Of a stretch of 64,000 nt of DNA, positions 6,820-47,020 are shown in pieces. The notes beneath the pieces are model-generated. The model made no database searches. It had not been told where the DNA came from and saw only the letters and a program-made list of their open reading frames with translations. Position 1 is the first letter of the stretch. Each line of letters starts with the position of its first letter. Source of the stretch: Chryseobacterium lathyri (GTDB lineage: Bacteria; Bacteroidota; Bacteroidia; Flavobacteriales; Weeksellaceae); the NCBI RefSeq assembly GCF_030812195.1, contig NZ_JAUSSF010000001.1, positions 806,001 through 870,000 on the forward strand, read 5' to 3'. A program made the translations under genes and the position numbers.

Positions 6820-6901
6820 AATTAGAAATTAGATGTTAGAGGTTAAAAGCCAGACATGATATTAGATAATTTCTACTATCCAGCTTCTAACTTCTCTAAT
6901 T
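6820..6901. repeat. Heptad-phased inverted element H1
   Basis: Between the pump and channel genes. The left arm consists of 7-base units such as TTAGAAA, TTAGATG, TTAGAGG; the right arm read on the other strand is AATTAGAGAAG then TTAGAAG, so the arms pair imperfectly over more than 20 bases. The element occupies nearly the whole intergenic gap and could form an RNA hairpin tuning expression of the downstream channel gene. Confidence 0.6.
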
Positions 6902-6905
6902 AATT

Positions 6906-9900
6906 TTATTCTGCTAAATTGATGTCTTCTTTCTTGAGAGGCTTAATTTTTTCCTGCAGTGTTTCAAAGATCACATACAGAACCGGGATTACGAATAATC
7001 CTAAAATAGTTCCTATCAATAATCCGATCGCAGCACCTGTTGCAATAGATCTGTTACCTACCGCCCCGATTCCGCTTGCAAGCACCAACGGCAATAATCC
7101 GAAGATAAACGCAAATGAAGTCATAAGGATCGGTCTTAATCTGGCCTTAGCTGCATTGATGGCAGACATGACGATGGTTTCACCATGGTGTCTCCGCTGG
7201 ACGGCAAATTCAACAATAAGGATCGCATTTTTTGCCAGTAATCCGACGAGCATGATCAGGGCGATCTGGAAGTAGATATTATTCTCCAGCCCCATGATCT
7301 TCTGCCCGAAATAAGCTCCCATTACCCCAAGAGGAAGAGAAATTACAACAATCAGCGGAAGGATATAACTTTCATACTGAGCAGAAAGGATAAAGTAAAC
7401 GAAGATCAAACTTAATCCGAAGATCAGAACGGTCTGTGATCCTGAATTTAATTCTTCTCTGGTCAGTCCGGTAAACTCTACTGAATAATTTTGGTTCAGT
7501 GTTTCACCTGCTACCTGCTGTATAGCAGTAATGGCATCTCCTGAACTGTATCCTGCAGAGTTTCCTCCTGTCACCTTCACAGAAGTAAACAGGTTGTAGC
7601 GGCTTACAGACTGAGGCCCGTACGCTTTTTTCAGTGTAACGAACTGTGAGATCGGAGACATTACTCCTGAACCTGTTCTTACATAAAGTTCGTTCAGGTT
7701 TTCAATGTTCTTTCTGTTTTCAGGAAGTGCCTGAACCATTACCCTGAACTGTTTTCCGTACTTGGTAAAGTCAGCAGTATAGATCCCTCCGATATATCCC
7801 TGCATCGTAGCAAGAATATCGCTTACAGAAACTCCAAGCTGTTTGGTCAAGGGAACGTTGATCTCCATCAGATACTGAGGATATTTTGTATTGAATGAAG
7901 TCTGGGCAAATTCAATTTCGGGTCTCTCCATCAGCTTACCGATAAATTCATTTGTTTTATCATCCAGATCTGCATAGTCACCACCGGATTTATCCAGCAA
8001 TACCATTTCAAAACCGGCGCTATTACCAAATCCGGGTACACTCGGAGGCTGAAAGAACACAACTTTAGCATCAGGAACAGATCCTACGATACCAAATAAT
8101 TTTTTAGTGATATCTTCTGAATTCTGACCATCTTTTTTTCTTTCATCGAATGGTTTCAGCTTAATAAAGGCAAGACCGTTATTACTTCCATTTCCGGATA
8201 AGAATCCTCTCCCTGTGGAAATTGTTACGTTCTGTACTCCCGGAACTTTCATGGCTTTTGCCTGAAGTGTTTTCAAAACATTATAGGTTCTTTCCATAGA
8301 GGCTCCCGGAGGAAGCTGAACATCCGTAAAGATAATTCCTCTGTCTTCCGTAGGTACGAACCCTTTTTTCATGCTGCTGTTTGCCCAGAATAAAATACCT
8401 CCTGTAATAGCAAAAATAATCAGCGTTACCCATTTATGTCTTAGCAGGAATACAAATCCTCTTCCGTAACGTTCGGTCGTTGTTTTAAAAGCAATATTAA
8501 ACTTATAGAAAAACTTCTGAAGAAAATTCAGGTTTTTGTACTCTTTATGATGCTCTGAGTGAGGTTTTAAGAATAGTGAACATAAAACCGGACTTAAAGT
8601 TAATGCATTAATTGCAGAAATAATGATTGCCACAATAAGCGTGATCCCAAACTGTTGGTAGAATACCCCTGTAGGTCCTGTAATGAACGTCACCGGAATA
8701 AATACCGATGCCATTACCAAAGTAATAGAGATGATTGCTCCTGTGATCTCGTCCATTGCCTCTACGGTTGCTTTTTTAGCATCTGAAATACCGTGCTCCA
8801 TCTTGGCATGGACGGCCTCGACGACGACGATGGCGTCATCCACCACAATACCGATCGCAAGTACCAGTGCAAAGAGGGTGAGGAGGTTTAATGAATATCC
8901 AAACAGATTCAGGAAGAAGAATGCCCCCACAATAGATACCGGAACTGCAATGGCCGGAATCAGGGTAGATCTGAAATCCTGAAGGAAAATATATACAACG
9001 ATAAATACAAGGATGAAAGCTTCGATCAGAGTATGTACTACTTTCTCAATAGAAGCTTCAAGGAATTCGTTCGTATCAAAGTTGAAGGTATACTTGATTC
9101 CCTGTGGAAAAGTTCCCTCTGCTGATTTCAGATATTCTTTAATATTTTCGATGATCTCCTGAGCATTGGATCCCGGAGTCTGGAAGATCCCCATACTGAT
9201 GGAAGGATTGTTTCCGTTCTCCCCGACCCCGCTGTAAGACTGCCCTGCCAATTCTACTTTGGCAACATCTTTCAGCATTAAATTCTGTCCGTCCCCAAGA
9301 GATTTGATGATGATATTATCATACTGTTCCTTATCATTGAATTTACCTACATATTTGATGATATATTCAAAAGAACTTCCGCTGTTCTGGCCAATAGAAC
9401 CCGCTGCCGCTTCTCTACTCTGCTCATTGATAGCATTGGTAACATCTGTGGGTGTTATTCCATAAGCTGCCATTTTTGCAGGGTCTAGCCAGATTCTCAT
9501 CGAATAGTTCTTACCACCGAAAACGTTGGCATCCCCTACACCGTTGATCCTTTTAAGATTCGGAATAATGTTGATATTCAAAAAGTTCTGAAGGTATACA
9601 TCATCAAGATCCTTGTTTTCGGAATAGAAAGACATATACATCAGGGCGCTGGTCTGCTGTTTCTGGGTAACAACCCCAGAACGTGTCACTTCTGAAGGCA
9701 GAAGCGGTGTCGCTCTTGCCACACGGTTCTGTACGTTTACCGAAGCGATATCAGGATCTATTCCTTGTTTAAAGAAAACCTGGATCTGGGCAGAACCGTC
9801 GTTCCCGGCGCTGGAAGTAATATAGTCCATTCCTTCCACCCCGTTGATCTGCTCTTCCAAAGGTACCACTACACTTTTCATCACCGTCTCTGCGTTCGCT

Positions 9901-10052
9901 CCCGTATAGTTTGCAGAAACACTTACCGTGGGAGGCGCAATATCCGGATACTGCGTAACCGGCAGCGAGATAAGTCCTAAAACACCGAGAATAACAATTA
10001 AAATTGAAATTACGGTGGATAAAACCGGTCTGTTAATAAAATTTTTAATCAT
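6906..10052 (-). CDS. RND multidrug efflux permease (HAE-1, AcrB/MexB-like)
   Basis: 1048 residues, the usual length of HAE-1 pumps. The N-terminus MIKNFINRPVLSTVIS is typical; twelve membrane helices in two sets of six flank two large periplasmic loops (~30-335 and ~560-870). The proton-relay pair is Asp405-Asp406 in GIVVDDAIVVVE (TM4), and GPSGVF-like TGPTGVFYQQF and GLLAKNAILIVEFA mark TM6 and TM10 regions. It exports drugs, bile salts or dyes from the inner membrane and periplasm by proton antiport. It lies 3 bases after the adaptor gene and shares its operon with regulator, adaptor and outer-membrane channel. Confidence 0.96.
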   Translation of the reverse strand: MIKNFINRPVLSTVISILIVILGVLGLISLPVTQYPDIAPPTVSVSANYTGANAETVMKSVVVPLEEQINGVEGMDYITSSAGNDGSAQIQVFFKQGIDPDIASVNVQNRVARATPLLPSEVTRSGVVTQKQQTSALMYMSFYSENKDLDDVYLQNFLNINIIPNLKRINGVGDANVFGGKNYSMRIWLDPAKMAAYGITPTDVTNAINEQSREAAAGSIGQNSGSSFEYIIKYVGKFNDKEQYDNIIIKSLGDGQNLMLKDVAKVELAGQSYSGVGENGNNPSISMGIFQTPGSNAQEIIENIKEYLKSAEGTFPQGIKYTFNFDTNEFLEASIEKVVHTLIEAFILVFIVVYIFLQDFRSTLIPAIAVPVSIVGAFFFLNLFGYSLNLLTLFALVLAIGIVVDDAIVVVEAVHAKMEHGISDAKKATVEAMDEITGAIISITLVMASVFIPVTFITGPTGVFYQQFGITLIVAIIISAINALTLSPVLCSLFLKPHSEHHKEYKNLNFLQKFFYKFNIAFKTTTERYGRGFVFLLRHKWVTLIIFAITGGILFWANSSMKKGFVPTEDRGIIFTDVQLPPGASMERTYNVLKTLQAKAMKVPGVQNVTISTGRGFLSGNGSNNGLAFIKLKPFDERKKDGQNSEDITKKLFGIVGSVPDAKVVFFQPPSVPGFGNSAGFEMVLLDKSGGDYADLDDKTNEFIGKLMERPEIEFAQTSFNTKYPQYLMEINVPLTKQLGVSVSDILATMQGYIGGIYTADFTKYGKQFRVMVQALPENRKNIENLNELYVRTGSGVMSPISQFVTLKKAYGPQSVSRYNLFTSVKVTGGNSAGYSSGDAITAIQQVAGETLNQNYSVEFTGLTREELNSGSQTVLIFGLSLIFVYFILSAQYESYILPLIVVISLPLGVMGAYFGQKIMGLENNIYFQIALIMLVGLLAKNAILIVEFAVQRRHHGETIVMSAINAAKARLRPILMTSFAFIFGLLPLVLASGIGAVGNRSIATGAAIGLLIGTILGLFVIPVLYVIFETLQEKIKPLKKEDINLAE

Positions 10053-10055
10053 TTT

Positions 10056-11240
10056 CTAAAATTTCGGTTTTATTGATTGAACAAGGCTATCCATTTTTAC
10101 TTTTTTAGGCTTAACGGCAGTTCCTGGTTTTAATCCTCCAATACCTGCCGCAACAATGATTTCTCCTTTGTTTACACCAGATTTTATAAGCGCAAAATTG
10201 TCTACTCTGTCGATGACATTCACCACAACATTTTTAGCGGTATCCTTGTCTACTTTGTAAACATACACAATACCCTGCTGCTCGTACGTTGCACTCTCCG
10301 GTACAACCAATACGTTGTCATAACGCTGAGGAAATCTGATTGTTCCGCTGTTCCCATTACTCAATAATTTCTGAGCATTGGTAAAGGCTACCCTGAACTG
10401 AATGGTACCTGTTGTAGGATCAATCTGTCCGGTAATAGCCTCAATAGTTCCTTTTTCAGGATAAAGGCTTCCGTTGGCCAGCTGAAGTTCTACCATCGGA
10501 AGATTTTTAATTTTGTCCGGCATAGATGAACCAGGAGATTTTTCAAGGAAATCAAAATATTCTTTTTCATTCATGGAAAAATAGGCAAAGATCTGCGAGG
10601 TGTCAGAAATCGTCGTCAGTGCGGTCTGATCAGTAGGTCCTACCAAACTTCCCACTTTTAAAGGAAGTTTCCCGATTACTCCTGAAATAGGGGCACGGAT
10701 GACAGAATACTCGATATTGGCTTCTACTCCTTTATAATTGGCAACAGCCTGTCTTTTTGCTGCATTGGCCTGTTGTAGCTGTGCTTGAGCCTGGGCAAGA
10801 TTAGCCTGAGCCGTCTGCAGCTGTACGCTACTGATGATATTTTTCTGAACAAGAGGTTTCAGTTTATTGACCTCTACCTGTGCTGCATTTACAGAGGCCT
10901 GCGCTGCTGCAATGGTAGATTCTGCCGCACCGATACCTGCTTTGGAAGCAGCGGCATTTTCAGTCAGGATATTGGTTTCAAGACGGAATAATGGCTGTCC
11001 TTTTGTAACATACTGTCCTTCGTCTACCAGTACCTGAGTAATATATCCCTGTATTTTTGCGCGGACATCATTGTTTACCCTTCCCTGAATGGTAGCCGGG
11101 AAAGTCTGATAGCCCACTATATTTTTCGACTCCACAGAAACAACAGGAAAAGGTTTTGGACCATCCTGTTTTGGAGCTTCTTTTTTGCAGGCTGTTAGTG
11201 AAAACGCTGCAATAGAAAGTATAACTAGCTTATTATTCAT
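10056..11240 (-). CDS. RND efflux periplasmic adaptor (AcrA/MexA-like) lipoprotein
   Basis: 394 residues with lipobox ending at Cys18 (SLTAC). Order of domains: barrel-sandwich half (about 60-95, ATIQGRVNNDVRAKIQGYI), a long alpha hairpin of Ala/Gln-rich heptads (about 100-165), second lipoyl half (YSVIRAPISGVIG), beta barrel and membrane-proximal domain. It bridges the RND pump and the outer-membrane channel. It begins 1 base after the regulator's stop, so regulator and pump are co-transcribed. Confidence 0.95.
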   Translation of the reverse strand: MNNKLVILSIAAFSLTACKKEAPKQDGPKPFPVVSVESKNIVGYQTFPATIQGRVNNDVRAKIQGYITQVLVDEGQYVTKGQPLFRLETNILTENAAASKAGIGAAESTIAAAQASVNAAQVEVNKLKPLVQKNIISSVQLQTAQANLAQAQAQLQQANAAKRQAVANYKGVEANIEYSVIRAPISGVIGKLPLKVGSLVGPTDQTALTTISDTSQIFAYFSMNEKEYFDFLEKSPGSSMPDKIKNLPMVELQLANGSLYPEKGTIEAITGQIDPTTGTIQFRVAFTNAQKLLSNGNSGTIRFPQRYDNVLVVPESATYEQQGIVYVYKVDKDTAKNVVVNVIDRVDNFALIKSGVNKGEIIVAAGIGGLKPGTAVKPKKVKMDSLVQSIKPKF

Positions 11241-11241
11241 T

Positions 11242-11697
11242 TTAAAGTTTATTAAGAGATTCCTGAATATTTTCTATGTTTTTATGTAAAAGTGCTTTGT
11301 AAGCTTCTATCCGTTCGTTGTATTCATTGTCATGATTCTTTTTAAAGTTGTTTAGGTCATCCAGTAATTTGAGTTCGTCCTCCATTTTTTGAACTATTTT
11401 TTCAAACCGGATCTTCTTGTACTCATCATTGATGAAAAAATATCGTTTCCGTTCATCCATTTTGTTGTGATCGATAATAAGCTGCGCGTTCAGCAGTAAT
11501 GAAATACTGGTAGAAACAGAGCTTTTGCTTGCAGAAAGCACTTCGACAAATTCATCAAAAGTAATTCCCACTTTCTCATAATCGAAAAGCAGGTAGGCAT
11601 AAATTTTTGACGCTAAAGGCGGTAGGTTGAAAACTGTGCCATAAAATTTTACAGCATCTTGAAAAATTCTCTCATCAATTTCTATACTTTGGTGCAT
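11242..11697 (-). CDS. GbsR/MarR-type transcriptional regulator of the efflux operon
   Basis: 151 residues. The N-terminal LPPLASKIYAYLLFDYEKVGITFDEFVEVLSASKSSVSTSISLLL is the GbsR-type winged helix (recognition helix in SKSSVSTSIS, ~50-65), followed by the wing (DERKRYFF) and a C-terminal helical pair. First gene of the four-gene efflux operon. A 15-base palindrome just upstream of the -7 element at 11714 suggests it represses its own operon and is released by a pump substrate (inference). Confidence 0.88.
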   Translation of the reverse strand: MHQSIEIDERIFQDAVKFYGTVFNLPPLASKIYAYLLFDYEKVGITFDEFVEVLSASKSSVSTSISLLLNAQLIIDHNKMDERKRYFFINDEYKKIRFEKIVQKMEDELKLLDDLNNFKKNHDNEYNERIEAYKALLHKNIENIQESLNKL

Positions 11698-11713
11698 AAT
11701 ATAAAAATTTTGA

Positions 11714-11721
11714 CAAAAGTA
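11714..11721 (-). promoter_or_regulatory. -7 element of the efflux operon promoter
   Basis: TACTTTTG on the minus strand fits TAnnTTTG; it ends 16 bases before the regulator's ATG. A TTTG at 11746-11749 lies 24 bases upstream, slightly longer than the usual spacer. Confidence 0.65.
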
Positions 11722-11725
11722 GAAA

Positions 11726-11740
11726 TTAGTTCAGAACTAA
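11726..11740. promoter_or_regulatory. Probable operator of the efflux operon regulator
   Basis: A perfect palindrome, TTAGTTC-A-GAACTAA, between the -33 and -7 regions. Its position fits repression by the GbsR/MarR protein encoded first in the operon. Confidence 0.6.
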
Positions 11741-11813
11741 ACGAACAAACCTGATAGAGTTTATAAATAAAGACTCTTTTAAAAATTCAATGAAAGTTGA
11801 TTTAACTTTTAGC

Positions 11814-12326
11814 TTAAATTATAATCTTCTCATAGGCTTTTCTCATCCCGTCAGCCAGAAGTACTTCCCCACAATAGGAATATCCCTTACTTTCAAGGAT
11901 CTTCAGCATGGCAATATTATCGTAATTTGTATCTACTTTTATACTTTGAATTTCCTGAGATCTTGTAAAATCTTCAATGTGGTCAAACAATTTTTTCACC
12001 ATACCCCGGCCGGCAAATTTTCCATCGACTGCGACTCTATGTACAACAACAAACTCCCCGTCGCTCAGCCAGGCTCCTTCGATTGTGCTGTAAGCCGGCT
12101 CGTCATTCAGTATCAGAGCTGCATAAATTGCAATCTCCCCATCTACTGTAAGAACGTATCCAAATCCCTTTGCAATATCACTTTCTACGGTTCCTATATT
12201 GGGATATCCGTTCTGCCATTGTGTACTTCCGTCCTGCTTTCTTCTTTCAATGGATTGCTGGATCATTCCCCAAATAATATCCCTGTCCTCAATCTCTGCT
12301 TTTCTTAGTTTCGTCTCTGAATTCAT
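11814..12326 (-). CDS. GNAT family N-acetyltransferase
   Basis: About 170 residues. The start MNSETKLRKAEIEDRD at 12326 is chosen because the frame's only earlier start is a TTG at 12362, which overlaps a promoter-like TATTTG. The acetyl-CoA site is VHRVAVDGKFAGRGMVKKLFDHIE (motif A, R/Q-x-x-G-x-G/A as KFAGRGM) and the tail MLKILESKGYSYCGE is the usual C-terminal GNAT strand. Substrate unknown; similar proteins are annotated as acetyltransferases of amino acids or antibiotics only by homology. A monocistronic minus-strand gene between the efflux operon and the DUF2007 terminator. Confidence 0.88.
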   Translation of the reverse strand: MNSETKLRKAEIEDRDIIWGMIQQSIERRKQDGSTQWQNGYPNIGTVESDIAKGFGYVLTVDGEIAIYAALILNDEPAYSTIEGAWLSDGEFVVVHRVAVDGKFAGRGMVKKLFDHIEDFTRSQEIQSIKVDTNYDNIAMLKILESKGYSYCGEVLLADGMRKAYEKIII

Positions 12327-12399
12327 TGTTGGTCCGTTATTGATTAAAGTATTGATTTTCAAATATTTTAATGGTCAATATTGATTTTTTGAATTAAAA

Positions 12400-12431
12400 A
12401 ACCGAAAACTAATCAAAATTAATTTTCGGTT
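12400..12431 (-). terminator. Terminator of the DUF2007 gene
   Basis: A 9-bp stem, AACCGAAAA/TTTTCGGTT, followed on the minus strand by six T, 35 bases after the DUF2007 stop. Confidence 0.8.
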
Positions 12432-12465
12432 CGAAGTAGTAAAATTTAAAATTATGAAATTGTTT

Positions 12466-12696
12466 TTATTGATTTTCACTTTGCTGAAGATAAGCATCTA
12501 TAACTTCAAATGCATTCTTCTCGTCTTCCAACTTTACCATAATTTTTAATGACGTTGCTGTAGGCGTTGTCGTAAAGGTAAGATAATTGTTTTCGACGCT
12601 GTTTGTAATTTGTGCATCATCCAATTTAGACTTTATTAGCTGGATTTCTGAAGGCTTATCACTTTCAAAAACCGATACTCTCGTGCTTCTTTCCAT
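12466..12696 (-). CDS. DUF2007 domain protein
   Basis: 76 residues covering one DUF2007 module: RVSVFESDKPSEIQLIKSKLDDAQI, then an EDEKNAFEVIDAYL helix. The family is described as putative signal-transducing and adopts a ferredoxin-like alpha/beta fold; no activity is established. It sits between the lysine aminotransferase gene and a GNAT gene with its own terminator downstream. It could be the tail of the lysine operon (62-base gap), but nothing in the sequence shows a functional link. Confidence 0.8.
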   Translation of the reverse strand: MERSTRVSVFESDKPSEIQLIKSKLDDAQITNSVENNYLTFTTTPTATSLKIMVKLEDEKNAFEVIDAYLQQSENQ

Positions 12697-12758
12697 ATTC
12701 TATATCGTTTGAGTATCTAAATGTACAATGTTTTTTTTAAAATTACAAATCTTTGAAT

Positions 12759-14084: not shown

Positions 14085-14105
14085 AATTAAAATAGTTGTG
14101 TGATC

Positions 14106-14147
14106 TAATAATTGAATGATTAAAAGTCTTAAACATTCAGGTTATTA
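14106..14147. repeat. Heptad-phased inverted element H2
   Basis: Six 7-base units between the ALDH and aminotransferase genes. The left half has TAATAAT, TGAATGA, TTAAAAG; the right half is close to its reverse complement (CATTCAG, GTTATTA). It could fold as a hairpin between two co-transcribed genes. Confidence 0.5.
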
Positions 14148-14186
14148 ATTTTTGTTTTTTTGTTGAAAATGACTTAAACCAAATTT

Positions 14187-15737: not shown

Positions 15738-15839
15738 AAAATGTTTACTTTTCGTTTCCTCTAAAGATAGAAATATTATGCGAACCTCAAAATTTTAATT
15801 TTTAACGGACTTTTTATTTGGACTAATTATAAACATGCT

Positions 15840-15847
15840 TATCTTTG
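15840..15847 (+). promoter_or_regulatory. -7 element for the 50-residue membrane protein gene
   Basis: TATCTTTG fits TAnnTTTG, with a TTTG about 19 bases upstream. The ATG lies 25 bases downstream. Divergent from the aldehyde dehydrogenase gene. Confidence 0.7.
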
Positions 15848-15872
15848 TAGGGTAATCTTTTGACATTCAGAC

Positions 15873-16025: not shown

Positions 16026-16056
16026 AAAAGCAGAGAAGGATCTCTGCTTTTCTTTT
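16026..16056 (+). terminator. Terminator of the small membrane protein gene
   Basis: An 11-bp perfect stem, AAAAGCAGAGA/TCTCTGCTTTT with loop AGGA, then CTTTT. It begins right after the stop codon. Confidence 0.9.
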
Positions 16057-16136
16057 AAGTAAGGTTAATTGAATTGCTATAGCCCTATTATTCGTTACAA
16101 TGCAAAGGCTCATTGTTAATGTTTTTACCCTCCGGC

Positions 16137-17342: not shown

Positions 17343-17480
17343 AATTGTAATTTTAATTTGATATTGTTTTGATATCATAAAGATATGAATAAGTTTTGAA
17401 TTATGGATATTGAATAATGATTTTTTTGATGCAGGATACGGGGTGCGGGTTTCGAATTATGGTGTGCATCCCGAAACACA

Positions 17481-17511: not shown

Positions 17512-17533
17512 CAGTTGTTATATTGTAAATATC

Positions 17534-27395: not shown

Positions 27396-27430
27396 AGTTG
27401 AAAGATTTAAGAATTTAATCATTAAAAGAT
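27396..27430. repeat. Heptad-phased element H3
   Basis: Five 7-base units, among them AGTTGAA, AGATTTA, AGAATTT, starting a few bases after the permease stop codon and ending just before its terminator. No clear inverted arm. Confidence 0.4.
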
Positions 27431-30082: not shown

Positions 30083-30131
30083 TAAGTGATGATCGATAAA
30101 TAATAAGTAATGAATAATGAGCAATAAGTAA
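30083..30131. repeat. Heptad-phased element H4 (direct)
   Basis: Seven 7-base units in exact phase with consensus T(A/G)A(G/A)(T/N)(A/G)A, for example TAAGTAA (twice) and TGAATAA, between pyrH and frr. The units are direct repeats without an inverted arm. Confidence 0.6.
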
Positions 30132-34132: not shown

Positions 34133-34146
34133 GACATTCACATGCT

Positions 34147-34240
34147 AGATTTCAGATTTCAGAGATATAATTGGCTGATCACAATGTGTCACACAATATT
34201 ATAGGTCTGAAATCTGATGTCTGATATCTAAAATCTATTT
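34147..34240. repeat. Heptad-phased inverted element H5
   Basis: Left arm: AGATTTC twice and AGAGATA. Right arm: TCTGAAA, TCTGATG, TCTGATA, TCTAAAA, TCTATTT in exact 7-base steps (34206-34240), complementary in kind to the left arm. It fills the gap between two converging genes and runs a few bases into the methyltransferase's 3' end. It may act as a bidirectional terminator or hairpin. Confidence 0.65.
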
Positions 34241-39281: not shown

Positions 39282-39313
39282 ACTTCAATTCAAAAATAGT
39301 CAAAAAATAATTT

Positions 39314-39874: not shown

Positions 39875-39896
39875 AACATCCAGATTCTTTCTGATC

Positions 39897-40868
39897 ATGT
39901 CAAAAAAATTCAAGATCCTGTGTTTACTGCTGACGGCTGCTATTATTCTTACTGCAGTGATCAACCTGAACACAGGATTTTTAAGTTTAAACCTACACGA
40001 TTTCTTTCAGAATACCGCTCAAAGCCAGATCGCTGAGATCCGGATCAACCGGGTACTGGTGATGCTTCTGGCAGGAATTTCAATTCCTACATCCGGTTTT
40101 CTGATGCAGGAATACTTTCAAAATCCTTTAGCAGGCCCGGATATTTTAGGAATCACATCTGTAGCCAGCCTCTCCGTAGCATTCTACATTTTCTGTTCTT
40201 ATGATCTTCTAATTCCTGAATTTCTGCAGAACAGTTTCCTCAGCCTTTCAGCCATCGCGGGAAGCCTGGTCCTGATGCTTGTTCTTTTATCCATGTCGAA
40301 TAAATTTCAGGACAAATCTTATCTGATTATATTTGGATTTCTCGTTTCTGCGTTTGCGGGGGCGGTCGTTTCTTTATTACAGTTCTATGCAGAAAATCAG
40401 AGTCTGAAAAACTATATTTTATGGTCTTTTGGAGCTAATAATATGGTAACCAGAAACCAGATCTATGTATTATCTATCCTGGTTTTCGTGGGAATATTTT
40501 TCTGTTTTAAAACGATAAAACCACTGATCGGAAATTCATTGGGAACGTCTTATGCACAGAGTTTGGGAGTCAATCTCAATCAGCTGAAAATCCTTATCAT
40601 TGCAGCCTCTTCCCTACTTTCAGCTTCTATAACTGCATTTCTGGGACCCATTTTATTTATCGGAATTATTGTTCCTCATTTTTGCAGACTGATCTATAAT
40701 CCATCCAAATTATGGCAGCAGTGGATCCTGAATATGGCGCTCGGAATGCTCATCATGCTAATGTTCTCTATCATAGCAGAAAAAACCCAGATTCCCATGA
40801 ATGTAATAAGCTCAGTGTTTGGAATACCGGTGATTTTACTGATGCTTCTGAAGCAGAATAAGGTTTAA
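39897..40868 (+). CDS. FecCD/BtuC-type ABC transporter permease
   Basis: 323 residues and about nine or ten membrane helices. INRVLVMLLAGISIPTSGFLMQEYFQNPLAGPDILGI is the signature of the iron-siderophore/cobalamin importer permease family (usual RVLAALLVGAALAVSGAxxQ..NPLAdPxiLG), and FLGPILFIGIIVPHFCR is the conserved region contacting the ATPase. It would import iron chelates, heme or B12. No periplasmic binding protein gene is nearby. The ATPase gene is downstream, separated by a small membrane protein gene. Confidence 0.92.
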   Translation: MSKKFKILCLLLTAAIILTAVINLNTGFLSLNLHDFFQNTAQSQIAEIRINRVLVMLLAGISIPTSGFLMQEYFQNPLAGPDILGITSVASLSVAFYIFCSYDLLIPEFLQNSFLSLSAIAGSLVLMLVLLSMSNKFQDKSYLIIFGFLVSAFAGAVVSLLQFYAENQSLKNYILWSFGANNMVTRNQIYVLSILVFVGIFFCFKTIKPLIGNSLGTSYAQSLGVNLNQLKILIIAASSLLSASITAFLGPILFIGIIVPHFCRLIYNPSKLWQQWILNMALGMLIMLMFSIIAEKTQIPMNVISSVFGIPVILLMLLKQNKV

Positions 40869-40907
40869 AGGTTAAGATGTAATTGGTCAATAGTTAATGG
40901 TGAATTT
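40866..40907. repeat. Heptad-phased element H6 (direct)
   Basis: Six 7-base units in exact phase, the first beginning with the permease stop codon (TAAAGGT, TAAGATG, TAATTGG and so on to TGAATTT). Rough consensus TNAANNG. Direct repeats only. Confidence 0.55.
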
Positions 40908-40980
40908 TTTAACCGAAAATAATACTCAGTGTAATCTGAAAAATCTTATGATTTATTTTTTTATGACTCGCTGATTTTGC

Positions 40981-41021
40981 GGATTATAAAGATTTTGAGA
41001 AAATTTAATAATTTATAATCC
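40981..41021. repeat. Inverted repeat upstream of the small membrane protein gene
   Basis: GGATTATAAA and TTTATAATCC, a perfect 10-base inverted repeat with a 21-base spacer, 13 bases upstream of a -7 element. Operator or hairpin. Confidence 0.4.
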
Positions 41022-41033
41022 AATAAACAGATC

Positions 41034-41041
41034 TAAATTTG
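41034..41041 (+). promoter_or_regulatory. -7 element upstream of the small membrane protein/ABC ATPase genes
   Basis: TAAATTTG fits TAnnTTTG and ends 6 bases before the ATG at 41048, predicting a leaderless or nearly leaderless mRNA. Confidence 0.5.
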
Positions 41042-41047
41042 TTACTG

Positions 41048-41350
41048 ATGAACCTAACAAATATTAAGATAACCCAGAAACAGTTAATTATTGCAAATAT
41101 ACTCCAATTTGTGATAAGCTTTGCATTCATGAGATTTTCTGACATATTTCGTTTGGATAAAGATCTCCACTGGATGTATAAATTTGGACATTGTTTGTAT
41201 CTGATGGCCTCTTTGCCTTGGTTCTTTTGGGGATCCCTCTTTTTAGGAGGCTACACCCTTTGGAAAAATAAAACAAATAAAATTTTGTACCTTTTTTTCA
41301 GTCTTTTTCCTCTTTTATTTTTTTTAATAATTATATTTTTTGTCAATTAA
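41048..41350 (+). CDS. Small membrane protein between ABC permease and ATPase genes
   Basis: 100 residues from the ATG at 41048. Three hydrophobic segments: about 13-30, 47-68 and 79-98 (LYLFFSLFPLLFFLIIIFFV). No family recognised. Its stop is separated from the ATPase ATG by one base, so the two are translated together; it could be an accessory subunit of the importer or an unrelated insertion. Confidence 0.65.
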   Translation: MNLTNIKITQKQLIIANILQFVISFAFMRFSDIFRLDKDLHWMYKFGHCLYLMASLPWFFWGSLFLGGYTLWKNKTNKILYLFFSLFPLLFFLIIIFFVN

Positions 41351-41351
41351 T

Positions 41352-42275
41352 ATGCACCTAGAAATCAGACAGGCCAAAATAGGCTACGACAAAACCTTAA
41401 TTTCAAATGCCCAGGCAGATCTGAAACTGGGTGACGTGTGCCTGCTGATTGGAAATAACGGTGTGGGAAAAACCACGCTTATCAAATCTATCCTGCATCA
41501 AGCTTCTCTTTTAAGCGGAGAGATTTTAATTAATCATAAAAATATAAAAACCCTCTCTGTTAAAGAAATTGCTGAAAATATTGCTGTTGTTTTCTCAAAA
41601 TCAAATGTACCACAGCATTATACTGTTGAAGACCTTATTTCATTAGGAAAATACATCTATTATCCTTTTTATTTTGAGCTTAAAAAAGAAGACAGGGAAG
41701 AAATCTCTCATATTATTGATGAACTGGATCTTGCCCAATACAGACATACTCTTCTTAAAAACCTTTCAGATGGGAATTTGCAGAAAGCCTTTATCGGTCG
41801 GGCTATCGCTCAGAACTCTCCGGTTATCATTTTGGACGAACCAACGACGCATCTGGATGAAAAAAACAAACTCATTATCTTAAAAACCCTCCGCAGACTA
41901 GCTAAGGAACAGCATAAAATCATATTATTCTCTTCTCATGACTGGAGACTGTCCAAAGAATTTGCAGACAAAATCTGGTATGTAAAAAATAGCCTGCTTT
42001 TCTCAGGAATCGTAGAAGATGTATTACTTCAGCACGATGAGCTTACCAATGTTTCATTGTTTCAGGTAAATGAGAATTTTGTTCCCCCTTCTATTGATGC
42101 TCCGCAGGTTCACAAGGAAATGCTTTATTCTTTACTGCAGAAAAATTTCGAAAAAGACCTTTCTGCTCTACATTTTGGATACAGGAACGATTTTTGGGAA
42201 ATTCTCACCGGCTCCTCCAAACAGCAATGTGAATCTTTCGAAGAAATAGTTAATTTCGTTAAAAACATTCATTAA
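41352..42275 (+). CDS. ABC transporter ATP-binding protein (FecE-like)
   Basis: 307 residues. Walker A GNNGVGKTT (about 35-43), Q-loop region VVFSKSNVPQHYTVEDLISLGKYIYYPFYFEL, signature LSDGNLQKAFIGRAIAQ (the usual LSGGQ is altered to LSDGN), Walker B VIILDEPTTHLD and H-loop FSSHDW. The N-terminal ~215 residues are the nucleotide-binding domain; the extra ~90 residues have no recognised role. It powers the permease encoded at 39897-40868. Confidence 0.9.
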   Translation: MHLEIRQAKIGYDKTLISNAQADLKLGDVCLLIGNNGVGKTTLIKSILHQASLLSGEILINHKNIKTLSVKEIAENIAVVFSKSNVPQHYTVEDLISLGKYIYYPFYFELKKEDREEISHIIDELDLAQYRHTLLKNLSDGNLQKAFIGRAIAQNSPVIILDEPTTHLDEKNKLIILKTLRRLAKEQHKIILFSSHDWRLSKEFADKIWYVKNSLLFSGIVEDVLLQHDELTNVSLFQVNENFVPPSIDAPQVHKEMLYSLLQKNFEKDLSALHFGYRNDFWEILTGSSKQQCESFEEIVNFVKNIH

Positions 42276-42301
42276 TACTATATTTCTATTAAATATTTCA
42301 C

Positions 42302-42321
42302 ATACTATGCATGCATAGTAT
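42302..42321. promoter_or_regulatory. Distal MarR operator of the beta-oxidation operon
   Basis: ATACTATGCA followed directly by its reverse complement: a perfect 20-base palindrome. It recurs with one mismatch 83 bases downstream. Confidence 0.65.
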
Positions 42322-42384
42322 TATGCTAATCATACAATTTAATCTATTTATTATCAGGCTATTAACAAAATTTAACGTTAATAA

Positions 42385-42404
42385 ATACTATGCATGCATA
42401 ATAT
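42385..42404. promoter_or_regulatory. Proximal MarR operator of the beta-oxidation operon
   Basis: The same palindrome (ATACTATGCA then TGCATAATAT, one mismatch), ending 4 bases upstream of the -7 element at 42409. A bound dimer would block the promoter. Confidence 0.7.
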
Positions 42405-42408
42405 TTAC

Positions 42409-42416
42409 TAAATTTG
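42409..42416 (+). promoter_or_regulatory. -7 element of the marR-fad operon
   Basis: TAAATTTG fits TAnnTTTG; the ATG is 21 bases downstream. Confidence 0.65.
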
Positions 42417-42437
42417 GGTAACACCATTAGTGGATAA

Positions 42438-42893
42438 ATGATGGATAATAATAAAGAAAAAATAGAAAACGTAGATTTAGTTTTGAAGCAGACCTGGCTG
42501 GCTGTTTCTAAAATGTACACAGAGCTTGCTCAAGAGCATGATTCTACTGCTGTACAAGCTCTCACTCTTCTTAAAATTGATCCCAAAGAAGGTACCAGAA
42601 GCACCAATCTGGGTCCTAAAATGGCCATAGAGCCCACCTCTTTGACCAGGATCATCAAGCTTCTGGAAGACAACGGATACATCTATAAGGAAAAGACCAC
42701 TGCCGATAAAAGGGAGGTGATCATTAAACTTACGGATAAAGGTCTGAATTCAAGGAATATGTCAAAAGAAGTAGTGGTCAATTTTAACAAGAAAGTGATG
42801 GAAAAGATCGCTCCTGAGAAAATTGAAACCTTCAAAGAAGTAATGTCTGAAATCATGAAAATTGCAAACGAATTATTAAATAACAGAAAATAA
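42438..42893 (+). CDS. MarR family regulator of the beta-oxidation operon
   Basis: 151 residues. A helical N-terminus is followed by the winged helix GTRSTNLGPKMAIEPTSLTRIIKLLEDNGYIYKEK (about 53-87), the wing DKREVIIKLTDKG, and C-terminal dimerisation helices. It begins the fatty-acid operon, 6 bases before the multifunctional enzyme gene, and its promoter carries two copies of a long palindrome. It is therefore probably an autorepressor released by an acyl-CoA or fatty acid, a FadR-like role (inference). A second ATG directly follows the first. Confidence 0.9.
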   Translation: MMDNNKEKIENVDLVLKQTWLAVSKMYTELAQEHDSTAVQALTLLKIDPKEGTRSTNLGPKMAIEPTSLTRIIKLLEDNGYIYKEKTTADKREVIIKLTDKGLNSRNMSKEVVVNFNKKVMEKIAPEKIETFKEVMSEIMKIANELLNNRK

Positions 42894-42899
42894 ATTATA

Positions 42900-45293
42900 A
42901 TGAAAAGAAGAATCAAACATGTAACGGTTCTTGGTTCAGGAATTATGGGCAGCGGTATTGCGGCACATTTCGCCAACATTGGTGTGGAAGTGTCTCTTTT
43001 GGATATTGTTCCTTTTGAACTGACGGAAGCTGAACAGAAAAAAGGTTTGACCAAAGATGACAAGGTGGTAAGAAACAGAATTGCTTCCGAAAACTTTGAA
43101 AAACTGAAAAAAGCGAGCCCCGCCCTTCTCTATTCTCCGAAATTTGCGGATAGAATTAAAATAGGCAACTTTGATGATGATCTTCAGAAGATCAAAAATA
43201 CAGACTGGATTATTGAAGTAGTGGTAGAAAAGCTTGATATTAAGAAATCTGTTTATGAAAAAATTGAACAGTTCAGAAAACCGGGAACATTAATTTCTTC
43301 TAATACATCGGGAATTCCTATCCATTTTCTAATTGAAGGAAGAAGCGATGATTTCAAAAAATATTTTGCGGGAACGCACTTCTTCAATCCGGTAAGATAC
43401 CTTCCTCTTTTAGAGATTATCCCTACTCCGGATACCCTTCCTGAAGTAGTGGATTTCTACATGAATTATGGCGCTAAATTCTTAGGGAAAACTACAGTTT
43501 TAGCTAAAGATACTCCAGCATTCATTGCGAACAGAATAGGAGTTTTCTCCATGATGGATCTTCTTCACAACGTACAGAAATTAGGATTAACTGTTTCTGA
43601 GGTTGATAAATTAACAGGTCCTGTCATCGGACGCCCGAAATCTGCAACTTTCAGAACAGCTGACGTTGTAGGTCTTGATACATTGGTAATGGTAGCGAAC
43701 GGTGTACGCCAAAGCGGTGCTGAAGCCAATAATTTCAATGATGTCTTTGCCCTTCCTGATTATATCCAGAAAATGATGGATAATAAATGGCTGGGTTCCA
43801 AAACGGAACAGGGATTCTACAAAAAGGTGAAAAATGCGGAAGGGAAATCTGAAATCCACGGACTGAACCTTGATACATTAGAATATGAGCTTCAGGGAAA
43901 ATCTTCTTTCCCTACTTTAGAATTAACTAAAAATATTGATAAACCAATTGACAGATTCAAAGTTTTAATTGGTGGAAAAGATAAGGCCGGAGAACTTTAC
44001 AGAAAGTCGTTAGGTGCATTATTCGCTTATGTTTCTCATAAAGTTCCTGAAATCTCTGATGAAATTTATAAGATTGATGATGCAATGAGAGCCGGTTTCG
44101 GATGGGAAAACGGTCCGTTTGAAATCTGGGATGCCGTAGGCGTTCAAAAAGGTATTGAACTGGCAAAAGATGCAGGCTATGAAGTTTCAGACTGGGTTAA
44201 AAATGTAGAGACTTTCTATAAGGTAAACGATGAAGGTCAAAGTATTTTTGTGGATAAAAATTCAGGAGAATACAATAAAATTCCTGGTCAGGATGCCTTT
44301 ATTATCTTAGACAATATCAGAAAGAACAAAACGCTTTGGAGCAATTCAGGAGCTGCTATCGAATATCTTGGTGACGGAATTATCAATTTTGAGATCCGCT
44401 CAAAAATGAATTCCCTTGGAGGAGAAGTTCTTGACGGATTAAACAGAGCCATTGATTTAGCAGAAAAAGAATATGACGGATTGGTTGTTGGGAACCAGGG
44501 AGCTAATTTCTCTGTAGGAGCCAACCTTGCTATGATCCTGATGATGGCTATCGAGCAGGACTGGGATGATCTGAATATGGCCATTGCTTATTTCCAGAAA
44601 TCCATGATGAGAGTACGCTACTCCTCTATTCCTGTAGTGGTTGCACCTCACGGAATGACCCTTGGCGGTGGTTGTGAAATGACCATGCATGCAGACAGAG
44701 TGGTTGCAGCAGCAGAAACTTATATAGGATTGGTAGAAACCGGAGTTGGAGTAATTCCTGGTGGTGGTGGTACTAAAGAGCTTACCCTGAGAACTTCAAG
44801 AGAATTCCACAGCGATGACGTTAAAAACAACAGACTTCGTGAAGCTTTTATGAATATCGCCATGGGTAAAGTAGCTACTTCTGCTTACGAAGCTTATGAT
44901 ATGGGAATTCTTGAAAAAGGAAAAGACATTGTATCCGTAAGCAAAAACAGACAGATCGCAGAAGCCAAAAAAGTTGCAAAACTACTGGCAGAACAAGGCT
45001 ACACACAACCTATCGAACAGAAAGTAAAAGTTCTGGGAAAAGATGCCTTAGGAATGTTCTATGTAGGAACAGATCAGATGCTTACCGGAAAGTTCATCTC
45101 TGAGCACGATAAGAAAATTGCAGACAAATTAGCCAACGTGATGGTCGGAGGAAATCTATCTGAACCAACCGTAGTTACCGAACAATACTTATTGAACCTC
45201 GAAAGAGAAACTTTCCTTCAGCTTTGTGGTGAAAGAAAAACACTGGAGAGAATTCAGTATATGTTACAGAATGGGAAACCGCTTAGGAATTAG
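42900..45293 (+). CDS. 3-hydroxyacyl-CoA dehydrogenase / enoyl-CoA hydratase (FadN-like)
   Basis: 797 residues. Unlike E. coli FadB, the dehydrogenase comes first: NAD-binding VTVLGSGIMGSGIAAHFAN (~8-26) and FFNPVRYLPLLEIIPTP with the His of the catalytic dyad in GTHFFNP; the second HAD helical domain follows (~190-420), and a crotonase-type domain lies at ~490-680 (GANFSVGANL, GMTLGGGCEMTMHADRVVA, ETGVGVIPGGGG). It carries out hydration and oxidation of enoyl-CoA. Second gene of the operon; its TAG stop is the start of a heptad element. Confidence 0.93.
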   Translation: MKRRIKHVTVLGSGIMGSGIAAHFANIGVEVSLLDIVPFELTEAEQKKGLTKDDKVVRNRIASENFEKLKKASPALLYSPKFADRIKIGNFDDDLQKIKNTDWIIEVVVEKLDIKKSVYEKIEQFRKPGTLISSNTSGIPIHFLIEGRSDDFKKYFAGTHFFNPVRYLPLLEIIPTPDTLPEVVDFYMNYGAKFLGKTTVLAKDTPAFIANRIGVFSMMDLLHNVQKLGLTVSEVDKLTGPVIGRPKSATFRTADVVGLDTLVMVANGVRQSGAEANNFNDVFALPDYIQKMMDNKWLGSKTEQGFYKKVKNAEGKSEIHGLNLDTLEYELQGKSSFPTLELTKNIDKPIDRFKVLIGGKDKAGELYRKSLGALFAYVSHKVPEISDEIYKIDDAMRAGFGWENGPFEIWDAVGVQKGIELAKDAGYEVSDWVKNVETFYKVNDEGQSIFVDKNSGEYNKIPGQDAFIILDNIRKNKTLWSNSGAAIEYLGDGIINFEIRSKMNSLGGEVLDGLNRAIDLAEKEYDGLVVGNQGANFSVGANLAMILMMAIEQDWDDLNMAIAYFQKSMMRVRYSSIPVVVAPHGMTLGGGCEMTMHADRVVAAAETYIGLVETGVGVIPGGGGTKELTLRTSREFHSDDVKNNRLREAFMNIAMGKVATSAYEAYDMGILEKGKDIVSVSKNRQIAEAKKVAKLLAEQGYTQPIEQKVKVLGKDALGMFYVGTDQMLTGKFISEHDKKIADKLANVMVGGNLSEPTVVTEQYLLNLERETFLQLCGERKTLERIQYMLQNGKPLRN

Positions 45294-45340
45294 ACTTGAG
45301 ACTTTAAGACTCGAGACTAAGAGATAAAAACTTAAATCTG
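45290..45340. repeat. Heptad-phased arm H7-left of the four-helix-bundle cassette
   Basis: Units such as AGACTTG, AGACTTT, GAGACTA beginning at the stop codon of the multifunctional enzyme gene. The segment 45290-45312 matches the reverse complement of 45721-45742 at most positions (TTAGAC, GAGA, AGACTC cores with one 2-base gap). Confidence 0.6.
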
Positions 45341-45350
45341 ATGGTAATTT

Positions 45351-45713
45351 ATGCACAATATTAAAAAATTGAAAATCTGGAACGATTCAATTAATTTATG
45401 TGTTGAAGTTTATAGGGCATTGGCAAATATGCCAAACGATGAAAAATATGGACTTTCTTCACAGATTAAAAGGTCTGCTGTTTCAATTTCTTCCAATATA
45501 GCAGAAGGAGCTGGGAGAGAAAGAGAAAAGGAATTTTATTATTTTTTAAATATTGCATATGGATCTTCTTATGAACTTCAAACTCAATTAATAATTTGTG
45601 AAAAATTGAATTTTATTTCAGAAGAAATAAATCAACCCTTACTACATAGGCTTGATGAAGTGCAAAAAATGATTTATGTTTTTAAAGAAAATATTAATAA
45701 AAAAATAATTTAA
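45351..45713 (+). CDS. Four-helix-bundle protein (23S rRNA intervening-sequence/S23 family)
   Basis: 120 residues. LKIWNDSINLCVEVYRALANMPNDEKYGLSSQIKRSAVSISSNIAEGAGRE is the hallmark of the four-helix-bundle family first seen as the ORF in 23S rRNA intervening sequences and related to Avd of diversity-generating retroelements. Members are thought to bind nucleic acid; function unproven. The gene sits between two beta-oxidation genes and is bracketed by inverted heptad arms. It is more AT-rich than its neighbours and looks inserted, yet it keeps the operon's direction. Confidence 0.9.
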   Translation: MHNIKKLKIWNDSINLCVEVYRALANMPNDEKYGLSSQIKRSAVSISSNIAEGAGREREKEFYYFLNIAYGSSYELQTQLIICEKLNFISEEINQPLLHRLDEVQKMIYVFKENINKKII

Positions 45714-45720
45714 ATGGCAA

Positions 45721-45755
45721 GAGTCTCAAATCTCTTGTCTAAAAATCTCTACTCT
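45721..45755. repeat. Heptad-phased arm H7-right of the four-helix-bundle cassette
   Basis: Units TCTCAAA, TCTCTTG, TCTAAAA, CTCTAAA, inverted relative to the left arm. The thiolase start codon follows 4 bases later. Confidence 0.6.
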
Positions 45756-45758
45756 AAA

Positions 45759-46937
45759 ATGAAACAAGCATATATAGTAAAGGGTTTCAGAACTGCCGTA
45801 GGAAAAGCTCCAAAAGGAAGTTTAAGATTCACAAGACCCGACGTGATGGCCGCTACAGTTATTGAAAAGTTGATGGCTGAGCTACCACAATTAGATAAAA
45901 ACAGAATTGATGACCTTATCGTAGGAAACGCAATGCCGGAAGCCGAACAAGGGTTGAACGTTGCCCGTTTAATTTCCTTAATGGGATTGAATACAGATAA
46001 AGTTCCCGGAGTTACCGTAAACAGGTATTGTGCATCAGGAAGTGAAGCGATTGCGATTGCTTCTGCAAAAATTCAGGCAGGGATGGCTGATTGTATCATT
46101 GCAGGGGGAACAGAATCGATGTCTTATATCCCGATGGGTGGTTACAAGCCGGTTCCGGAAACAGATATCGCAAAAACAAACCCTGATTATTACTGGGGAA
46201 TGGGATACACAGCTGAAGAAGTTGCCAAGCAATATAATATCACAAGAGAAGAGCAGGATCAGTTCGCTTTTGAATCCCATATGAAAGCTTTGAAAGCTAA
46301 TGCTGAAGGAAAATTTGCCGGTCAGATCGTTTCGATTCCTGTAGAATATAATTTCCTGGACGAAAACCAGAAAATGCAGTCTAAGAAGTTTGACTTCTCT
46401 GTAGACGAAGGTCCTAGAAAAGATACTTCTTTGGAAGGTTTGGCTAAGCTGAGACCAGTATTCGCGAATGGAGGAAGCGTAACAGCCGGAAATTCATCTC
46501 AGATGAGCGACGGAGCAGCTTTCGTGATGGTAATGAGCGAAGAAATGGTAAAAGAATTAGGTCTTGAACCGCAAGCTAGATTAGTAGCTTATGCTGCTGC
46601 AGGTCTTGAACCTCGAATTATGGGTATGGGACCGATTTATGCGATTCCAAAAGCATTAAAACAGGCCGGTCTTGAATTAAAAGATATTGAACTGATTGAA
46701 TTGAACGAAGCTTTTGCATCACAGTCAGTAGCAATCAAAAAGGAATTGGGCCTAAATCCTGACATCCTCAATGTCAACGGAGGTGCGATCGCTCTTGGCC
46801 ATCCACTTGGATGTACCGGAACAAAATTAACCGTTCAACTTCTTGACGAAATGAGAAGACGCGGCAACAAGTACGGAATGGTTTCTATGTGCGTGGGAAC
46901 CGGACAGGGAGCCGCTTCAATCTTTGAACTTCTATAA
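45759..46937 (+). CDS. Acetyl-CoA acyltransferase (thiolase, FadA-like)
   Basis: 392 residues from the ATG at 45759 (MKQAYIVKGFRTAVGKAPKG); an upstream in-frame ATG would read through the repeat arm. Catalytic residues: Cys91 in NRYCASGSE, His348 in IALGHPLGCTG and Cys378 in MCVGTGQGA. It cleaves 3-ketoacyl-CoA with CoA, the last step of beta-oxidation. It follows the four-helix-bundle gene within the operon. Confidence 0.96.
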   Translation: MKQAYIVKGFRTAVGKAPKGSLRFTRPDVMAATVIEKLMAELPQLDKNRIDDLIVGNAMPEAEQGLNVARLISLMGLNTDKVPGVTVNRYCASGSEAIAIASAKIQAGMADCIIAGGTESMSYIPMGGYKPVPETDIAKTNPDYYWGMGYTAEEVAKQYNITREEQDQFAFESHMKALKANAEGKFAGQIVSIPVEYNFLDENQKMQSKKFDFSVDEGPRKDTSLEGLAKLRPVFANGGSVTAGNSSQMSDGAAFVMVMSEEMVKELGLEPQARLVAYAAAGLEPRIMGMGPIYAIPKALKQAGLELKDIELIELNEAFASQSVAIKKELGLNPDILNVNGGAIALGHPLGCTGTKLTVQLLDEMRRRGNKYGMVSMCVGTGQGAASIFELL

Positions 46938-46940
46938 AAA

Positions 46941-47020
46941 TGTGCTGATGTATTTATGTAAAATGTACTCATGATGCTCGATTCAAATCATTAATACATT
47001 TTACATGAATACTTTAATAC
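46941..47020. repeat. Heptad-like inverted element H8
   Basis: 46950-46974 and 46988-47012 are inverted copies of a 25-base segment with three mismatches (core ATGTAAAATGTA), separated by 13 bases. Units of about 7 bases recur within each arm. It lies between the thiolase and acyl-CoA dehydrogenase genes. Confidence 0.65.

Follow-up and report, generated by a model that had tools for sequence, protein, structure and literature searches.

Within a window of 64,000 nucleotides from Chryseobacterium lathyri (NCBI RefSeq assembly GCF_030812195.1, contig NZ_JAUSSF010000001.1, positions 806,001 to 870,000 of the forward strand), several gaps between genes are filled by arrays of degenerate 7-base units, and one of these gaps additionally holds a gene of the S23 family. 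We observed that the interval 45290-45755 constitutes a single element, comprising a heptamer array, a 120-codon S23 gene and a further array in inverted orientation. The left arm (45290..45340, plus strand) is a run of degenerate GAGACTN-type heptamers, the first of which shares bases with the stop codon that ends the preceding 3-hydroxyacyl-CoA dehydrogenase gene (42900-45293); this arm recurs upstream of the same S23 subfamily at the loci L101, L208 and L360. The gene itself (45351..45713, plus strand) codes for a 120 aa protein of the four-helix-bundle S23 or 23S rRNA intervening-sequence family, and the right arm (45721..45755, minus strand), built of the same kind of heptamer, ends just before the inferred start of the thiolase gene at 45759. 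S23 proteins are best known from insertions in rRNA genes. The window element instead sits between the dehydrogenase and thiolase genes and not inside a 23S rRNA gene; a search of the window with Rfam recovered two tRNAs and nothing else.

The assignment of the encoded protein is secure, with matches to PF05635 (23S_rRNA_IVP; E 6.7e-38, 129.6 bits against a cut-off of 33.8) and TIGR02436 (four helix bundle protein; E 2.4e-35). Its solved relatives, PDB 2gsc (E 2.1e-19) and 2rld (E 9.1e-5), contain five chains each, and a Xanthomonas homologue is described as a homopentamer (PMC4990558). Profile searches with the open reading frame (ORF) recovered no nuclease domain and no Y1_Tnp match, and no PADLOC defence family was found for the element. 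The genome carries seven S23 copies, three of which (L143, L144 and L146) have internal stop codons; recognisable flanking repeats are still present at the broken copies L143 and L146.

Matches to PF05635 are found in 59/60 Chryseobacterium and 193/247 Bacteroidota genomes. From such matches we assembled a set of 283 distinct S23 genes, drawn from Bacteroidota and 12 plasmid loci (of 23 plasmid records with a match), leaving out ORFs below 95 aa and identical DNA; the loci are the best-scoring among the matches listed, supplemented by 80 and 60 loci fetched by place, and weak and broken copies are consequently under-represented. Period-7 arrays accompany 196 of the 283 genes on one side or more and 138 on both sides. 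Among control genes from the window's genome the corresponding figures are 39/707 and 1/707, and among those of 80 relatives, lying more than 600 nt from any S23 gene, 66/1,319 and 0/1,319. When period 7 or 8 is accepted on at least one side, 225/283 S23 genes qualify versus 48/707 control genes. At a threshold of 10, the S23 flanks yield period-7 arrays at 174 of the 283 genes, period-8 arrays at 29 and period-12 arrays at 3, with none at the other periods from 4 to 11, and one base-shuffled set of the same flanks yields none at any period from 4 to 12. Where both arms could be scored, the two sides share one unit, in inverted orientation, in 132/138 elements; the median similarity between arms is 0.74 in inverted and 0.47 in direct comparison, the arms of other elements giving 0.49. 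The S23 gene lies in sense with both of its neighbours in 247 of the 268 elements with a scorable orientation (of the other 15, 13 were unclear and 2 short), and a single vote per site group (n=49) leaves 40 groups in sense, 4 in antisense and 5 mixed.

The repeat unit goes with the protein. Pooling units by S23 subfamily gives TAGAWRT for the MKSHRIEDL type, AAGARWA for MKHNFK, WGTAHAA for MHNFRELEVW, AGGTWKY for MANFKELLVW, WRGCTWT for MRDFKK and RATTWTA for MSFKED, with others besides. The information content at successive positions is 1.7, 1.9, 1.8, 1.7, 0.6, 0.5 and 1.7 bits for TAGAWRT, and 1.7, 1.9, 2.0, 2.0, 0.3, 0.5 and 1.8 bits for AAGARWA, such that the units of these two clearest subfamilies have five strongly constrained positions and two variable ones; in other subfamilies fewer positions are constrained to this degree. 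Inside single arrays the confinement of variation to set phases is moderate (variance 0.94 versus 0.65; 32/258 arrays at p <= 0.05), and it is clearer in the pooled units. In a comparison restricted to S23 pairs without detected flank homology, the median unit similarity is 0.77 at 60-80% protein identity (152 pairs) versus 0.46-0.54 below 60%. Pairs from distant groups at 60% identity or more have unit similarity medians of 0.64 and 0.80, and a cyanobacterial and a Bacteroidota S23 protein of 70% identity have an AGNCAGA-like unit in common. Judging from these sequence comparisons, unit specificity seems to be lost quickly as S23 proteins diverge.

These observations bear directly on how the arrays arose. 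The original prediction had suggested replication slippage or a primer-templated origin for the period; such a process copies all seven bases and does not predict the fixed and free positions seen, whereas recognition of each unit by a protein does. A fuller version of the slippage account, in which microsatellite expansion is coupled with selection for hairpins as terminators or mRNA ends and the S23 link is mere hitch-hiking, can appeal to arrays of perfect copies, such as long AAAGATA runs and the gap at C1:261063-261139 of the window's genome, which consists largely of perfect CAATTAT repeats, unlike the degenerate arrays, and may represent true slippage. It can appeal likewise to the gap at 34133, where many species have a hairpin-like sequence separating two convergent genes, and L114 and L115 a simple terminator-like one. 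Nevertheless, the association with S23 is already hard to square with it, given both-sided arrays at 138/283 S23 genes against 1/707 and 0/1,319 controls, and neither the coupling of unit to subfamily nor the pattern within the unit follows from it; we regard it as very unlikely.

The evidence on whether the inverted arms are kept for base-by-base pairing is mixed. The arms of an element match each other slightly better than they match the arms of same-subfamily copies (17.0 versus 15.7, better in 136/216 elements, p 6.8e-7), an advantage that is present in the MRDFKK, MHNFEK, MNNFRD and MSHFRK types and unclear in five large subfamilies (the MHNFREL, MSFKED, MKHNFK, MKSHRI and MDLPK types). 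The window element has an RNA fold z of -2.98 against 100 shuffles, with the predicted fold joining its arms by 6 base pairs only and the arms mostly folding elsewhere; several solo hairpins, by contrast, fold well. The idea of arms maintained for pairing is thus not strongly supported, and the weak own-arm match together with the few arm-arm pairs makes it more likely that the unit itself is recognised than that a stem is maintained.

We then asked whether a unit is more abundant where its S23 protein is encoded, counting triplets of TTAGANN and AAAGANN units in 60 genomes and taking as cognate an S23 protein of at least 68% identity (MKAHRL type for TTAGANN, MKHNFK type for AAAGANN); the counts are of overlapping matches, so that long arrays weigh more, and include the arms of S23 elements. 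The median TTAGANN count is 60 in the 11 genomes with the cognate S23 and 7 in the 49 without (area under the receiver operating characteristic curve, AUC, 0.94), and for AAAGANN the medians are 40 and 6 (AUC 0.84). After exclusion of the 4 genomes with both S23 proteins, the cognate association has p 0.00018 for TTAGANN and 0.00038 for AAAGANN, the non-cognate one p 0.26 and 0.35. A phylogenetic regression over 50 of the 60 genomes, on a one-gene tree, estimates cognate effects of about 2.8-fold (p 5.5e-7) and about 2.9-fold (p 5.7e-4), respectively. In 15 genomes with S23 relatives of only 54-61% identity the TTAGANN median is 8 versus 7 (p 0.25), an absence of effect that unit specificity predicts.

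Subfamily-specific units and their association in trans fit equally well with a regulatory S23 protein for which the arrays are binding sites in DNA or mRNA, the arms serving its own control and the solo arrays that of host genes, with nothing mobile involved. A precedent of sorts is MacGregor's proposal of post-transcriptional sites for the TAACTGA heptamers (PMC4679880). Solo arrays, however, show no promoter placement: at a threshold of 8, 17 lie in tandem, 2 in convergent and 1 in divergent gaps, against length-matched expectations of 13.9, 3.3 and 2.8, none of the departures being significant, and the 17 in tandem gaps show no bias toward start codons (mean position 0.52). Placement as promoter operators was hence set aside, albeit on small numbers. 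An S23 gene inside 23S rRNA and the three broken copies among the seven in the window's genome further have the look of passengers.

The orthologous gaps of 80 named relatives hold S23 genes of several subfamilies, accompanied by their own arrays. The gap at 46938, between the thiolase and acyl-CoA dehydrogenase genes, contains an S23 ORF in 43 of 79 species, from at least four subfamilies, an S23 fragment in 4 and a scored solo array in 7, and in 11 it is shorter than 60 bases, often 20-34. On a quick single-gene tree of a neighbouring gene, with 22 of its 78 inner branches open, the occupant changes at least 38 times, where shuffled labels give a mean of 39.5 and a minimum of 34 in 100 trials; S23 carriers alone show 25 changes versus 24.3 shuffled. 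Labels covered 64 of the 81 tree rows, S23 fragments being assigned to their subfamily and unclassified gaps being left out along with the A-rich L108 and L112, which had scored as solo. Two C. jejuense genomes (L081 and L113) carry different S23 subfamilies in this gap, MSFKED and MKHNFK, with different units. An occupant that changes about as often as shuffled labels is unexpected for a regulatory site, and we consider the purely regulatory account improbable.

The gap of the window element, 45294-45758, is similarly changeable. It contains S23 in 28 of 79 species by motif and in 30 by profile, and in 30 of the 79 species (for example L072, L065 and L113) it is the site of a gene for an IS200-like Y1 transposase (PF01797 in the one copy tested) standing between the palindromes CTCCGTAGGAG / CCTCGTAGAGG. 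Two unrelated one-gene elements thus use one place. Against the IS200 model the tested copy scores 73.7 bits, above the cut-off of 55, but it stays below that of the model for transposases associated with repetitive extragenic palindromes (REP; 36.7 bits, cut-off 80), so that to call its element a REPtron is our own reading. The shared gap lends some substance to the idea that S23 elements are moved by another agent, be it a transposase, a retroelement or recombination between flanks, with the S23 protein only guarding or processing the RNA. The S23 ORF has no nuclease domain match, and it is akin to the Avd proteins, S23 relatives that serve a reverse transcriptase: family matches to them stay below threshold, and a PHROG of Avd proteins matches S23 at E 4.6e-5. 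A resident reverse transcriptase is, however, not needed as the mover at present, since 28 of the 60 genomes, the window's included, have no RVT_1 match despite at least one S23 match in each. Nor would a shared mover lead one to expect the cognate subfamily to have the larger effect in trans. Movement by another agent is, to our minds, rather unlikely.

Period 7 is also a general property of the gaps in this genome. We scored 513 gaps in a sample of 864 kb of the 4.5 Mb genome (the window and 40 stretches of 20 kb each), whose closest named kin by a single gene are Chryseobacterium elymi and C. lathyri, with genes called by a simple hexamer model, the array score being a column likelihood over five units and the null 10 dinucleotide shuffles. 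At thresholds of 8, 10 and 12 there are 33, 20 and 11 period-7 arrays versus 2.8, 0.8 and 0.2 in the shuffles. Period 8 is the clear runner-up (10, 8 and 6 versus 1.9, 0.2 and 0.0), an excess that S23 clusters with octamers, seen by eye in the MSHFRK, MIKTYK and MINFEN types that fail the period-7 test, would explain. The remaining periods from 5 to 15 have small excesses (0-3 versus 0.0-0.8 at threshold 10), period 14, a harmonic of 7, reaching 3 versus 0.1. The claim that the period is what these gap arrays conserve is therefore borne out genome-wide, with 20 arrays where shuffled gaps yield 0.8, and the outcome that the original prediction had named as its refutation, no excess over shuffled sequence, did not occur. 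Plain identity at lag 7, averaged over 36 gaps of the window, has z 2.9, but lags 3, 6, 8 and 9 also have z 2.05-2.4, and we dropped this weak and unspecific measure as a test of the window. The companion claim, that the sequence is not conserved, needs qualifying: the units of the window do differ from one another and from site to site, but they belong to unit families that are met again at numerous sites and in further species. A core is common to many arrays: the pattern TTAGANNTTAGANNTTAGA has 32 overlapping matches in the genome and its reverse 8.

Individual sites were tested against 300 shuffles of their own gap (uncorrected p), and hairpins against 150. Of the nine intervals that the original prediction had listed, period 7 stands up at six, including both arms of the S23 element (8/300 shuffles reaching the observed value at each of 45290 and 45721), and fails at 14106, 27396 and 46941. 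The solo array at 6820..6901 lies between co-directional genes and has TTAGANN units, the unit of the MKSHRIEDL-type S23 subfamily by eye, with its second half inverted (0/300; RNA fold z -3.36 for gap 6815). At 30083..30131 direct TRARYAA units (0/300) form no hairpin, the RNA fold of gap 30078 being 0 kcal/mol, and similar units occur in a second array of the same genome (C3:692336). The array at 34147..34240, AGATTTC ... AATCTGA, is inverted and lies between convergent genes (period 7 0/300, hairpin 0/150, fold z -4.38 for gap 34140); its gap has a period-7 array in 21 and a period-8 array in 8 of 55 species, with differing units. A weak array of GTCAATN/GTGAATN-like units at 40866..40907 starts at a stop codon (4/300; fold z -1.3), and by eye such units also flank the broken S23 copy L143. 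The solo hairpin at 46941..47020, in gap 46938, has TACATNN-like units of the type found by eye with the MHDFRQ subfamily; period 7 is unsupported there (176/300) and period 8 is better (7/300), the hairpin being strong (0/150, fold z -7.39). Period 7 is likewise unsupported at 14106 (53/300; fold z -2.8 for gap 14100) and at 27396 (52/300), where period 8 is better (4/300). A further period-7 array at 17428-17462, GATGCAG GATACGG GGTGCGG (log-likelihood ratio 10.4), is G-rich, unlike the rest, and was absent from the first list.

Some gaps of the relatives hold other small elements. In L077 and L080 the gap at 45294 contains a short palindromic repeat, TGTCATTCCG..GGAATC..CAGCATGACA, resembling a miniature inverted-repeat transposable element (MITE), and similar motifs are found in the gap at 40869 of L066, L067, L070, L073 and L074. 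The latter gap (40869-41351) harbours a GxxExxY / PDDEXK_3 gene (PF13366, TIGR04256; one copy tested) in 17 of 72 species, for example L071 and L072, which by eye adjoins inverted repeats of the GCGCAAAGG type. It makes a third passenger of one gene that is accompanied by repeats of its own.

Taken together, we propose, with a probability of about 0.7, that the heptamer arrays are the inverted and, where solitary, likely orphaned ends of one-gene S23 elements, each subfamily of which is likely to recognize its own unit and spread it in trans. We read these elements as REPtron-like passengers that sit in transcription units in sense orientation. The architecture of the element, the coupling of unit and subfamily, the association of arrays with S23 genes and the turnover of gaps are observed; the weakest part of the proposal is how the elements spread. 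The S23 protein would, as we envisage it, be translated from host-operon transcripts that read through the element; as a pentamer it would bind the units of an array one by one, sensing their fixed positions, while the bases at the free ones would not matter. Where arms pair in the RNA they may be cut back, much as the 23S rRNA intervening sequence is by RNase III, and copying into new gaps might be accomplished by host enzymes, perhaps through template switching on single-stranded DNA. The element itself has no gene for a recognised nuclease or a reverse transcriptase, hence the appeal to host enzymes.

A number of points weigh against this proposal. As many as 58 of the 283 S23 genes have neither a period-7 nor a period-8 array; the window's own MHNIKK subfamily (9 genes) and three clusters of 9-13 genes lack an array at the four-unit threshold, clusters failing that period-7 test having irregular or octamer arrays by eye. 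The 283 genes moreover fall into 59 site groups, the largest with 106 members, and are not independent, while only 3 of 7 plasmid loci have S23 in sense with both neighbours. That the arms of the window element pair poorly with each other when its RNA fold is predicted belongs here too. Taken over every pair lacking detected flank homology, unit similarity follows protein identity with a rank correlation of only 0.14. The pairs at 60% identity or more number 154, of which 124 are Chryseobacterium pairs, in which flank homology may be missed, and pairs from distant groups that reach 60% number just 13. The association in trans is a correlation only, and the 68% cut for cognate proteins was chosen after the hit list had been seen: counting all 26 genomes with a match (E <= 1e-35) weakens it to medians of 30.5 versus 7 (p 0.0011). 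Non-cognate effects are not nil (regression p 0.0023 and 0.03; p 0.014 for TTAGANN before the exclusion), and independent pairs (starred branches) were too few (7 pairs, median p 0.125), which is why the phylogenetic regression was used. Furthermore, 8 of the 49 genomes without a close cognate, the window's among them, hold 32-77 TTAGANN matches; these may be leftovers. Finally, no insertion event was observed, and target-site duplications were not systematically looked for.

The proposal makes a sharp prediction, from protein subfamily to repeat unit, that is open to binding assays. A spread of repeats by S23 without a nuclease would, moreover, be an unusual route of mobility. At about even odds, we extend the proposal to a mobile class of its own, in which a nuclease-free pentamer reads DNA or RNA per heptamer or octamer and seeds arrays of its own unit, with the rRNA intervening sequences, the repeats of Cyanobacteria and Beggiatoaceae and the arrays of Bacteroidota forming one family. 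Every array would then be the footprint of a single S23 subfamily, and its sequence would be predictable from that of the protein. Three loose ends would be tied up together: the role of S23 in rRNA intervening sequences, the origin of bacterial heptamer repeats and the reason why period 7 is favoured. A literature search, mostly outside subscription journals, found nothing linking S23 genes outside rRNA to heptamer arrays and, with subscription journals mostly uncovered, no work joining the cyanobacterial plasmid, Azospirillum and Coxiella cases considered below; the nearest precedent in what it covered is a note of heptamers in one rRNA intervening sequence (PMC4990558).

Among known systems, the 23S rRNA intervening sequences resemble the elements described here in having an S23 gene between inverted ends within a few hundred bp. 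The Azospirillum lipoferum S23 locus L269 lies within a 23S rRNA gene, Rfam LSU_rRNA_bacteria matching across the whole locus, and the ends of this insertion are heptameric by eye. The Coxiella 23S insertion is described as having tandem GACAGAT heptamers upstream of the S23 ORF, in two or three sets depending on strain, and intervening sequences of this kind as being placed in rRNA helices and excised by RNase III (PMC4990558). The Chryseobacterium elements differ in that they lie between protein genes, fall into many subfamilies and are accompanied by many solo arrays.

Short tandemly repeated repetitive (STRR) sequences, heptamers long known in Cyanobacteria, are defined as arrays by near-identical units. 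These and the TAACTGA repeats are comparable to our arrays as intergenic tandem heptamers of Cyanobacteria and Bacteroidetes, whereas the Chryseobacterium units vary at set free positions. On the plasmids of Nostoc, Calothrix, Pseudanabaena, Anabaena, Geminocystis and Aulosira, S23 genes adjoin heptamer arrays by eye (for example GGGAGTA, GGGAACA, GTGACAG and AAAAGCT), which resemble STRR sequences and several of which have near-identical units, and in 5 of the 7 plasmid loci with both arms scored the arms are inverted. In Pseudanabaena and Anabaena plasmids (L259 and L265) an S23 gene with heptamer arrays stands between cas6 and cas4. The TAACTGA heptamers have been viewed as possible regulatory or rearrangement sites, in a paper whose main text makes no mention of S23 (PMC4679880).

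A more distant likeness is to the Avd proteins of diversity-generating retroelements, with scores of 19.3 bits for bAvd (cut-off 40) and 20.2 bits for DivGenRetAVD (cut-off 80), both sub-threshold; the element is set apart by these scores below the family cut-offs and by the lack of an RVT_1 match in the window's genome. A parallel in build is offered by REP sequences and their REP-associated tyrosine transposases (RAYT), where one small gene stands between inverted copies of a repeat that also exists as scattered solo copies, gene and repeat being coupled. As in a REPtron, the S23 gene has inverted copies of a repeat on its two sides, and the repeat occurs throughout the genome; in contrast, the protein is no Y1 (HUH) transposase but a four-helix bundle in which no nuclease domain is recognised, and the repeats are arrays of heptamers or octamers where REPs are single palindromes. 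The original prediction had contrasted the arrays with REP and MITE families, and it rightly set them apart from ordinary repeats of conserved sequence; their build, nonetheless, resembles that of the REP/RAYT system with a different protein in the place of the transposase.

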